A stretch of 50,254 nt of DNA. Source: Candidatus Magasanikiibacteriota bacterium. GTDB lineage: Bacteria > Patescibacteriota > Patescibacteriia > Magasanikbacterales > GWA2-37-8. The stretch lies in the NCBI GenBank assembly GCA_023246715.1, contig JAHFHZ010000005.1, forward strand, positions 1 through 50,254. The letters run 5' to 3'. This document shows, piece by piece, positions 31,472 to 35,161 of the stretch; position 1 is the first letter of the stretch, and each line of letters begins with the position of its first letter. The notes beneath the pieces were generated by a model, which saw only the letters and a program-made list of their open reading frames with translations, had not been told where the DNA came from and did not search any database. Both the position numbers and the translations under genes were made by a program.

Positions 31472-34400
31472 ATGAAAAAATACAATCCGAAAGAAATCGA
31501 GCCTAAGCGCCAGAAGGCCTGGGAAGAAGACAAGACATTTTTGACCACGGAAAAAATGAATCAAGAGAAGTTTTTTGCTCTGGTTGAATTCCCGTATCCG
31601 TCTGGCGCTGGGCTGCACGTTGGGCACGCCCGGCCCTACACGGCCATGGATGTAATAGCGCGCAAAAAACGAATGGAAGGAAGAAATGTGTTGTTTCCGA
31701 TCGGGTTTGACGCGTTTGGTTTGCCGACTGAAAATTACGCCATTAAAACCGGGCGGCCGCCCGCCGAAGTAACGGCCGAAAATATCGTCACGTTTACGCG
31801 TCAACTCAAGGCGCTTGGATTTAGTTTTGATTGGTCGCGAGCGGTGGATACGACTGATCCTAAATATTATAAATGGACACAGTGGCTTTTTTTGCAATTT
31901 TTTAAACAAGGACTGGCCTATAAAAAAAACCAGCCCATCAATTGGTGCCCGAAAGATAAAATTGGCTTGGCAAATGAAGAAGTGGTTGCCGGATGTTGCG
32001 AGCGGTGCGGTACGGCGGTGGAGAAACGCAACAAGGAACAGTGGATGTTGGCGATTACCAAATACGCTGACTCGCTTTTGGCCGGGCTCAACGAAGTAGA
32101 CTATATTCCGCAGGCGCGGGCGCAACAGGAAAATTGGATTGGCCGGAGCGAAGGGGCGCTCATTCGTTTTGTCATTGCGAGGAGGGCCGGTAGCCACCGG
32201 CCCGACGAAGCAATCCCCCCGTTAACAGAATTACCCCCTACCGAACTCCAAGGGATTGCTTCACCTCGTTCCTCGGCTCGCAATGACATGAGGGAAATCG
32301 AAGTCTTCACTACCCGCCCGGATACTATTTTCGGAGCGACTTTCTTGGCCATCTCGGCCGAGCTGGCTAACAAATGGCTTGGTATTGGCTGGCAGACCAG
32401 CGCCGAGGTGCAAAAATATATCACCGATACACTGGTTGAACAAGCCGTGAATACGACGCGTGAAGAAAAAGAAAAAACTGGTATCGCGACTGGCGTTAAG
32501 GCCATTAACCCGGCGAACGGCGAAGAGATTCCGGTGTGGATTACTAATTATGTACTTGGTACTGTTGGCACTGGTGCCATCATGGCGGTACCAGCGCATG
32601 ATGAACGGGATTGGGAGTTTGCCAAGAAATATAATTTGCCACTTAAAGAAGTGGTATTAAAAATAATAGGGCGGCCACTTCCTAATGCTATTCGGCGCGA
32701 TGGAGCCTGCGCTGTGATAATGAAAGGTAACAAAGTCCTGGTTCTGTATACCAAAAAATTTGATTTTTTCTCTTTGCCCTCAGGGGGTTATAACCCCGGA
32801 GAAACACCCACAGAAACTATTCGTAGAGAAATTAGGGAAGAAACGGGCTATATCAATTTTAAAATTACTGATTATTTAGGAGAACTCGAAAAGAATGTAT
32901 TTGCCGTGGGGCGGAATGAAAATCGATATAGACTGCATAAGGGGTACTTAGTACAGCTTCTTGATGAAGAGAAAGTCCCACTCCAACTTGATGGTTATGA
33001 AGATTATGTAAGTGAATGGGTTACGCCGGAAGAGGCTATAAAGAAGTTATCAGAGAATCCCTATAAATATGGCGATGAGGAGTTTGTAAGGCGCGCTTTG
33101 AACGAGAGCGATCGTTGTTTTACCGGGGATGGGACGGCGGTAAATTCTGATTTTTTAGATGGCCTTTCCACTCCAGAAGCCAAAGCAAAAATAATTGCCT
33201 GGCTGGAAGAAAAAGGTGTTGGCAAACGCCAGGTAAATTACAAACTGCGTGATTGGGTGTTTTCTCGGCAGCGCTACTGGGGCGAGCCGATACCGCTGGT
33301 ATTCTGCGAAAACTGCCGCAATCATAAGTACAACTACGTCATTATCCACGGCTTTGGTTCCGATTCCACGCAAGGGTTTAAACCATGGCTCAAAAAAGAA
33401 TTGGAAGAGGCGGGGCATAGCGTTTTTCTACCTAATTTACCGAATACTAATAACCCGAGTGTAGATGAACAAGTTGACTATATTTTAAAAAATACCCAAC
33501 TGAACGAAGACACGATACTTATCGGCCATAGTTTAGGTGGTACGGTGCTGCTTAAATTATTGGAAAAAATTTCTACTCCGGTTGCCAAAGCCGTGATTGT
33601 GGATGCACCAATTGCCCCTCGATACAGCGATGGTGATCGGCCCGACGTAAACAAAAGTTGTGACTGGAATTTTGATTTCGCCAAGATTAAAAAAAATAGC
33701 CGCGAGTTTGTGGTTTTGGGCGATAAAAATTTTAGCGTGATTCCCGAAAATCAGTTGCGTGAGCTTGGCCAATTGGTAGGTTCGCCAACGCGTTTGGTGC
33801 AGCCAGAAGGGGCACATTTTAGCAGGGGTAGCACGCGTGAACCCGAAGTTTTACAAGCGGCTCTTTTTGCCGGTTGGATTCCGCTTCCCGCGGAACAGCT
33901 TCCGTTGGAGTTGCCCCAAGTTCAAAAATACGAACCAACCGACACTGGTGAATCACCGCTTGCCACAATGTCAGAGTGGGTAAAAACCACTTGCCCCAAG
34001 TGTGGCGGCGCAGCTCGGCGCGAAACCGACACCATGCCCAATTGGGCCGGGTCAAGCTGGTATTGGTTGCGTTATTGCGATCCAAAAAATGATCAAGAAT
34101 TTGCCAGCCAGGGAAAACTTGTCTACTGGCTCAAGAATAAATCTGTCATTCTGAACGAAGCAGAGCGCAGTGAAGAATCCCTTAAGGCAAAACAAGGAAA
34201 CGACCTTAGTGTTAAGGGATCATTCGCTAACGCTAAGGATGACAGGTGTGGGGGCGGCGTGGATTGGTACAACGGCGGCATGGAACATACGGTGCTCCAC
34301 TTGTTGTATTCTCGTTTTTGGAACCAATTCTTATTCGATTGCGGATTAGTGCCGACGCGCGAGCCCTATAAAAAACGCACTTCGCACGGCATAGTCCTGG

Positions 34401-35161
34401 CCGAAGATGGAGAAAAAATGAGTAAAAGCCGGGGCAACGTGATTAACCCGGATGATATGGTGGACAAATACGGCGCCGATGCGCTGCGCACTTATATCAT
34501 GTTCATGGGGCCGTTCGATCAGGCCGTAGCCTGGAGTACTAATGGCCTGGTGGGCGTGCGCCGGTTTTTGGATCGCGTCTGGAATTTAAAGGAACATGTC
34601 ATTGCGAGGAGCTACAGCGACGAAGCAACCCCTTCGTTTAAAGAATTAATTCCTTCTGAACACGAGGGGATTGCTTCGCCTCGTTCCTCGGCTCGCAATG
34701 ACAAGTTGACTACATTACTTCACCAAACCATCAAAAAAGTCACGGAAGATATTGATGGAATGAGATTTAATACGGCGATCTCGGCGCTGATGCAACTCAC
34801 CAACGAAATGACTAAACAGGAGGCGGTGACTTCTGGAGACTATAAGATTTTAATTCAACTTTTGTATCCTTTCGCCCCTCATCTGGGCGAAGAAGTCTGG
34901 TCCGCATTGGGTGCGAATGTAACTATCGCCTACGAACCGTGGCCGCAATACGACCCGGCACTAGCCAAAGCAGAGGAATTCAGTTTGGTCGTACAAATAA
35001 ATGGCAAAGTCCGCGATACCTTTTCCGTGTCTTCTGATACCAGCGAAGACGAAGCCAAACGCCTGGCGCTCGGGAGTGAAAAAATCCAAAAATGGCTGGA
35101 AGGCAAGGAGCCAAAAAAGATAATTTACGTGAAGAACAAACTGGTAAGCATTGTAATTTAA
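31472..35161 (+). CDS. leuS: Leucyl-tRNA synthetase with inserted Nudix and alpha/beta-hydrolase domains and three in-frame palindromic repeats
   Basis: GAGLHVGHARPYTAMD (HIGH), GTGAIMAVPAHDERDWEFA (CP1), RDWVFSRQRYWGEPIPLVFCENC, GEKMSKSRGNV; 1229 aa. Confidence 0.95.
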   Translation: MKKYNPKEIEPKRQKAWEEDKTFLTTEKMNQEKFFALVEFPYPSGAGLHVGHARPYTAMDVIARKKRMEGRNVLFPIGFDAFGLPTENYAIKTGRPPAEVTAENIVTFTRQLKALGFSFDWSRAVDTTDPKYYKWTQWLFLQFFKQGLAYKKNQPINWCPKDKIGLANEEVVAGCCERCGTAVEKRNKEQWMLAITKYADSLLAGLNEVDYIPQARAQQENWIGRSEGALIRFVIARRAGSHRPDEAIPPLTELPPTELQGIASPRSSARNDMREIEVFTTRPDTIFGATFLAISAELANKWLGIGWQTSAEVQKYITDTLVEQAVNTTREEKEKTGIATGVKAINPANGEEIPVWITNYVLGTVGTGAIMAVPAHDERDWEFAKKYNLPLKEVVLKIIGRPLPNAIRRDGACAVIMKGNKVLVLYTKKFDFFSLPSGGYNPGETPTETIRREIREETGYINFKITDYLGELEKNVFAVGRNENRYRLHKGYLVQLLDEEKVPLQLDGYEDYVSEWVTPEEAIKKLSENPYKYGDEEFVRRALNESDRCFTGDGTAVNSDFLDGLSTPEAKAKIIAWLEEKGVGKRQVNYKLRDWVFSRQRYWGEPIPLVFCENCRNHKYNYVIIHGFGSDSTQGFKPWLKKELEEAGHSVFLPNLPNTNNPSVDEQVDYILKNTQLNEDTILIGHSLGGTVLLKLLEKISTPVAKAVIVDAPIAPRYSDGDRPDVNKSCDWNFDFAKIKKNSREFVVLGDKNFSVIPENQLRELGQLVGSPTRLVQPEGAHFSRGSTREPEVLQAALFAGWIPLPAEQLPLELPQVQKYEPTDTGESPLATMSEWVKTTCPKCGGAARRETDTMPNWAGSSWYWLRYCDPKNDQEFASQGKLVYWLKNKSVILNEAERSEESLKAKQGNDLSVKGSFANAKDDRCGGGVDWYNGGMEHTVLHLLYSRFWNQFLFDCGLVPTREPYKKRTSHGIVLAEDGEKMSKSRGNVINPDDMVDKYGADALRTYIMFMGPFDQAVAWSTNGLVGVRRFLDRVWNLKEHVIARSYSDEATPSFKELIPSEHEGIASPRSSARNDKLTTLLHQTIKKVTEDIDGMRFNTAISALMQLTNEMTKQEAVTSGDYKILIQLLYPFAPHLGEEVWSALGANVTIAYEPWPQYDPALAKAEEFSLVVQINGKVRDTFSVSSDTSEDEAKRLALGSEKIQKWLEGKEPKKIIYVKNKLVSIVI
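32171..32287. repeat. In-frame palindromic repeat in leuS (copy 1)
   Basis: gtcattgcgaggagggccggtagccaccggcccgacgaagcaatcc...gggattgcttcacctcgttcctcggctcgcaatgac; 117 bp = 39 codons. Confidence 0.9.
34144..34244. repeat. In-frame palindromic repeat in leuS (copy 2, variant)
   Basis: tgtcattctgaacgaagcagagcgcagtgaagaatcccttaa...ttaagggatcattcgctaacgctaaggatgaca. Confidence 0.8.
34598..34702. repeat. In-frame palindromic repeat in leuS (copy 3)
   Basis: gtcattgcgaggagctacagcgacgaagcaacccc...ggggattgcttcgcctcgttcctcggctcgcaatgac. Confidence 0.9.

Follow-up and report, generated by a model that had tools for sequence, protein, structure and literature searches.

Why should a leucyl-tRNA synthetase (LeuRS) carry a complete Nudix hydrolase inside its own editing domain? 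Aminoacyl-tRNA synthetases are textbook conserved enzymes. The window, a 50,254-nucleotide stretch of a Candidatus Magasanikiibacteriota genome, nevertheless encodes a LeuRS of 1229 residues, compared with about 810 in an ordinary bacterial LeuRS. It is the only LeuRS copy in this genome (G000), and the Nudix insert sits in that single copy.

An enzyme domain within the LeuRS editing domain

The LeuRS gene and the features recognized within it are the following:

31472..35161, + strand: leucyl-tRNA synthetase ORF (TIGR00396, 909.2 bits, cut-off 548.4, in four stretches over the whole length)
32203..32288, + strand: interspersed repeat, copy 1, in frame (repeat search; 12 matches in the whole genome)
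32285..32662, + strand: CP1 editing domain (PF13603), N-terminal part up to the insertion point (Pfam 3.3e-51, aa 272-397)
32660..33112, + strand: predicted Nudix hydrolase cassette in a CP1 loop (Pfam NUDIX 3.8e-15, predicted fold, GC3)
32783..32851, + strand: Nudix box GGYNPGETPTETIRREIREETGY (read directly; in 111 LeuRS-embedded domains its catalytic positions are 91-100% conserved)
33311..33865, + strand: RBBP9/YdeN-like alpha/beta serine hydrolase (GHSLG) in the LeuRS zinc-knuckle region (Pfam Ser_hydrolase 3.1e-7; phmmer YdeN 1uxo 8.1e-14)
34136..34237, + strand: in-frame stretch (NKSVILNEAERSEES...), probable further repeat copy (LeuRS alignment gap, aa 876-930)
34618..34703, + strand: interspersed repeat copy, in frame, 84% identical to copy 1 (repeat search)

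The protein aligns with bacterial LeuRS (TIGR00396; T. thermophilus 1h3n) in the catalytic, CP1 editing, zinc and anticodon-binding regions, and differs from it by two inserted enzyme domains and the in-frame repeats. The editing-domain motifs VFTTRPDT and AVPAHDERD, invariant or nearly so in the LeuRS alignment, are both present. The insert itself is the in-frame translation KIIGRPLP...RRALNESD, residues 397 to 547 of LeuRS (151 aa), and the Pfam NUDIX match covers residues 408 to 530 (56.5 bits, cut-off 21.1). CP1 resumes 3' of it from about 33113. Alignment with T. thermophilus LeuRS covers residues 242 to 375 before the insert and 374 to 442 after it, with LeuRS on both flanks; since the match breaks at 375 and resumes at 374, the domain is cleanly placed in a loop of the CP1 editing domain. 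An earlier sequence-only reading of this DNA had proposed a complete Nudix domain at exactly this place, with boundaries to be checked against other LeuRS. The profile match, the open frame and the two flanks bear it out. Its estimate of ~785 residues for the protein without inserts also holds, as about 788 are left once the Nudix domain, the second hydrolase (about 185 aa) and three repeats (about 105 aa) are removed.

An intein or other self-removing insert is ruled out: Pfam finds no splicing (HINT) domain in the window LeuRS, and the Nudix domain accounts for the whole insert.

CP1 is a classic inserted domain, an enzyme lodged in a synthetase (PMC13114784). Whereas CP1 is the standing editing domain of LeuRS, the window Nudix is nested inside CP1, occurs patchily and can be replaced. 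NCBIfam NF040702 (isoleucine--tRNA ligase with N-acetyltransferase domain), compared here as a library entry only, likewise combines a class I synthetase with an extra enzyme domain, but its partners are IleRS and a GNAT domain. Annotation by TIGR00396 labels proteins of the present type simply leucine--tRNA ligase, despite the several enzymes aboard.

Conservation, predicted fold and nearest Nudix enzymes

The box GGYNPGETPTETIRREIREETGY matches every defining residue of GX5EX7REUXEEXGU except the final hydrophobic position, which is Tyr, as the sequence-only reading had reported. This Tyr is the family norm, occurring in 94% of the 111 LeuRS-embedded Nudix domains. The remaining box residues are strongly conserved in the same set (profile numbering: G41 100%, E47 91%, R55 94%, E56 100%, E59 98%, E60 99%, G62 100%); loss of the catalytic glutamates, named beforehand as an observation that would count against an enzyme, is not what the homologs display. 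Furthermore, the positions 16-17 residues past the box are aromatic (F/Y) in about 90% of the embedded domains, and pairwise dN/dS of the Nudix domain is 0.01-0.28 wherever estimable, a sign of purifying selection. Conserved catalytic residues and low dN/dS together point to a working enzyme and not to neutral filler.

Structurally, the insert fits the Nudix alpha-beta-alpha fold. An AlphaFold2 model of the CP1 and Nudix stretch has a mean pLDDT of 87.7 (91-96 across most of the insert), and Foldseek with this model recovers LeuRS editing domains (3pz5, 3o0a, 4k47) and, separately, the Nudix protein 2azw. The insert modeled alone reaches a pLDDT of 93.8 and a pTM of 0.88, with 2azw (MutT/nudix of E. 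faecalis) as its first structural match (3.5e-11, TM 0.75/0.77) and 3i7u, the Aquifex Ap4A hydrolase aq_158, as the second (7.5e-11); 3i7u is 29% identical to the window Nudix and ranks first by phmmer and only sixth by profile. The confident model, a check suggested along with the original claim, gives a Nudix fold. Ap4A hydrolase and RppH are among the structural neighbors (1e-11 to 1e-9), and the diadenosine polyphosphatase Rv2985 is also among the nearest folds of named function. MutT1, CTP and UDP-X enzymes follow closely after the top folds, 8-oxo-dGTP and RNA-decapping enzymes are near neighbors as well, and ADP-ribose pyrophosphatases lie lower by TM-score. None of the NCBIfam equivalogs, Ap4A hydrolase included, scores above its own cut-off for the window Nudix. 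This neighborhood favors a small-nucleotide or dinucleotide substrate and would fit several candidates within that range.

The insert thus resembles the Nudix superfamily (PF00293) in its box, fold and metal-binding glutamates. Unlike the free-standing 2azw and 3i7u, the window domain lies inside LeuRS, as do almost all members of the main lineage described below. Sequence and model together give good support to a tethered, active NDP-X hydrolase in LeuRS, whose hydrolytic activity we infer.

Distribution and exchange of the inserted domains

The search within the window's order covered 86 genomes, and LeuRS was read in 80 of them. Inserts longer than 60 aa occur in 49/80 and a Nudix domain in 28/80; around model position 447, 32/80 carry an insert (as a rule an alpha/beta-hydrolase), and 12/80 have both this insert and Nudix. 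Long ORFs, by open-frame length, amount to about 6/83 for ValRS and 3-4/83 for IleRS in the same order. Across the phylum, LeuRS-embedded Nudix is present in 51 of 380 sampled genomes, a count tallied by hand from profile-search rows with LeuRS identity checked. A scan of named genomes with a six-row Nudix alignment as query finds carriers among Magasanik-, Buchanan-, Uhr-, Taylor-, Nomura- and Saccharibacteria. Nudix-LeuRS also occurs, with the insert at the same site, in nine Bacilli/Erysipelotrichaceae MAGs (L158, L192, L195, L202-L205, L221, L223) and is the sole LeuRS in 4/4 Bacilli genomes examined; transfer between phyla, in either direction, is possible. The insertion site is narrowly confined: of 119 LeuRS-embedded Nudix domains counted, 110 lie at model positions 370-390. 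In over half of the relatives, LeuRS lacks Nudix altogether.

Nudix presence at this main site is unstable, with at least 41 changes on a 190-row LeuRS backbone tree. Nudix identity is weakly correlated with LeuRS identity (Spearman 0.11, compared with 0.25-0.62 for equal-sized LeuRS segments), a difference to which faster Nudix evolution may contribute and which is not proof alone. Individual pairs are more telling: two members of one genus (G126 and G263) have LeuRS 82% identical and Nudix only 39% identical, whereas G126 and L164 share 69% identity in Nudix and only 50% in LeuRS. Within genus g16, one genome has Nudix and HAD (G027), another only Nudix (G028) and a third only HAD (G029); among species of genus g53, three lack Nudix and two have Nudix domains that differ from each other. 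A truncated Nudix remnant is present in G009. These sequence comparisons show the insert to behave as an exchangeable cassette, a property beyond the reach of the sequence-only reading and visible only when relatives are compared.

On the Nudix tree, which is built on few columns and uncertain in its deep forks, the main lineage comprises 100 rows, nearly all LeuRS. The window domain falls instead in a MutT-like group with 13 other LeuRS domains and free-standing enzymes. By this placement, it belongs to a minor lineage; the usual occupant of the site is another lineage, found almost exclusively in LeuRS. Because of this MutT-like affiliation and its foreign GC3 (0.364, compared with 0.53 in the flanking LeuRS), the window Nudix is probably a replacement, or a recent acquisition, of a different Nudix at a favored site. 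The window genome holds five further Nudix genes outside LeuRS. Two free-standing Nudix proteins (L146 and L160; 171 and 174 aa) nest inside the LeuRS Nudix lineage and look like escapees rather than donors. That of L146 lies directly upstream of a ValRS-like gene. A third candidate, L162, begins with LeuRS sequence and was rejected as a broken LeuRS. At the DNA level, comparison of the breakpoints in two congeners shows indistinct edges and no target-site duplication, and we therefore propose no mechanism of insertion.

Nudix is one of several enzymes in these proteins. According to Pfam, the Nudix site holds a methyltransferase (G005) or a HAD domain (G029, G027) in some relatives, and a Ham1p domain occupies another loop of LeuRS in G004. 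A 1795-aa LeuRS (G088, L243:1677-7061) combines HAD, Ham1p, Nudix and nucleotidyltransferase domains, with HAD and Ham1p outside the Nudix site; visual inspection of the same protein suggests a second Ham1-like stretch. In a Taylorbacteria LeuRS of 1717 aa (L157:3209-8359), three Nudix domains are joined by HAD and an alpha/beta-hydrolase. A 179-aa insert near model position 530 in another LeuRS (L111, G043) has no Pfam match at 0.001. The alpha/beta-hydrolase of the window likewise belongs to a LeuRS-resident lineage, which sits at position ~447 in the window's order and at ~244 in other orders of the phylum. Its members score above nearly all free-standing relatives, and the best 30 matches are all LeuRS save one free-standing copy (86 bits). 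Other synthetases are affected too, namely a ValRS with Nudix (L238), an IleRS with Ser_hydrolase, Nudix and His_Phos (histidine phosphatase) (L241), and a ValRS-like ORF with HAD, alpha/beta-hydrolase and Nudix together (L299, G093); L238 and L241 are additional top hits of the phylum-wide Nudix search. Thus, a few enzyme families recur in the class I Leu, Val and Ile synthetases.

Possible roles of the tethered enzymes

Aminoacyl-tRNA synthetases adenylylate many acceptors, yielding NpnX compounds (PMC7705103); they are a main source of Ap4A, which Nudix enzymes degrade (PMC10148737). Against this background, the reading we prefer, and regard as about evenly balanced between right and wrong, takes the Nudix domain as an exchangeable CP1 cassette that hydrolyses an NDP-linked compound. 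The substrate would be an NpnX, for instance Ap4A or some other adenylylated side product of the synthetase, or else a harmful nucleotide of a related kind. The domain would stay tethered to LeuRS in order to act on compounds that the synthetase makes or meets, and its place in an essential gene would give it matched expression and protection from gene loss. A point against this reading is that the window Nudix, being MutT-like, and the main lineage differ, so their substrates may differ. A wider proposal, tentative and in our view doubtful, is that the LeuRS of Patescibacteria, and at times ValRS and IleRS, serves as a chassis for circulating Nudix, HAD, Ham1 and alpha/beta-hydrolase cassettes, swapped at fixed loops, that jointly guard the synthetase or clean up after it.

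A narrower alternative, that the domain removes specifically the Ap4A made by LeuRS itself, was suggested by the sequence-only reading. The chemistry of this suggestion is plausible, given the source of Ap4A, the presence of aq_158, RppH and Rv2985 among the nearest folds of named function, and the conserved aromatic residues past the box. Ap4A is not singled out as the substrate, however: the closest structure, 2azw, is without assigned function, the Ap4A-hydrolase equivalogs all fall below cut-off, and CTP, 8-oxo-dGTP and RNA-decapping enzymes are also near in fold. Nor does such clean-up hold as a general need of these LeuRS, as the loop in close relatives contains HAD, methyltransferase or nothing, and the other cassettes stay unexplained. 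We consider removal of Ap4A alone rather unlikely. More generally, one by-product alone does not account for the site, since HAD, methyltransferase and Ham1 occupy this loop or ones nearby and over half of the relatives lack Nudix. Antibiotics are known to target LeuRS and IleRS (agrocin 84, mupirocin), and the cassettes might instead protect LeuRS, ValRS and IleRS by detoxifying nucleotide-like inhibitors or reversing modifications, their type turning over as threats change. Variation in cassette presence and type inside genera (g16, g53), near-identical LeuRS with very different Nudix domains, and the multi-enzyme ValRS-like ORF and IleRS all agree with such a role, which we nevertheless judge unlikely.

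It is also conceivable that small enzymes merely hitchhike in permissive surface loops: a long essential gene would shelter them from loss as genomes shrink, and they would have no link to aminoacylation. The many unrelated enzyme types in several loops, the truncated remnant in G009 and the patchy distribution with its numerous state changes fit this explanation. However, hitchhiking accounts poorly for the strong preference for LeuRS over ValRS and IleRS, for the recurrence of the same few families at different LeuRS sites, and for LeuRS-resident Nudix and alpha/beta-hydrolase lineages that are closer to one another than to free-standing enzymes; on balance, it seems somewhat improbable. An assembly error, a pseudogene or a dead structural insert is extremely improbable: the frame is open, the catalytic residues are conserved and dN/dS is well below 1. 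The artefact that the sequence-only reading had named as its possible undoing is excluded by relatives with Nudix-LeuRS in many independent assemblies.

A search of the open-access literature for Nudix with LeuRS, or for inserts in candidate-phyla synthetases, returned nothing on point, which is weak evidence that neither Nudix-in-LeuRS nor a swappable-cassette architecture has been described. A conserved synthetase that time and again gains, loses and swaps entire catalytic domains at set loops, within otherwise minimal genomes, would suggest a threat or by-product at the synthetase that is not yet recognized. A natural Nudix-LeuRS fusion would also allow a direct test of an old question, the fate of Ap4A and related nucleotides made by synthetases.
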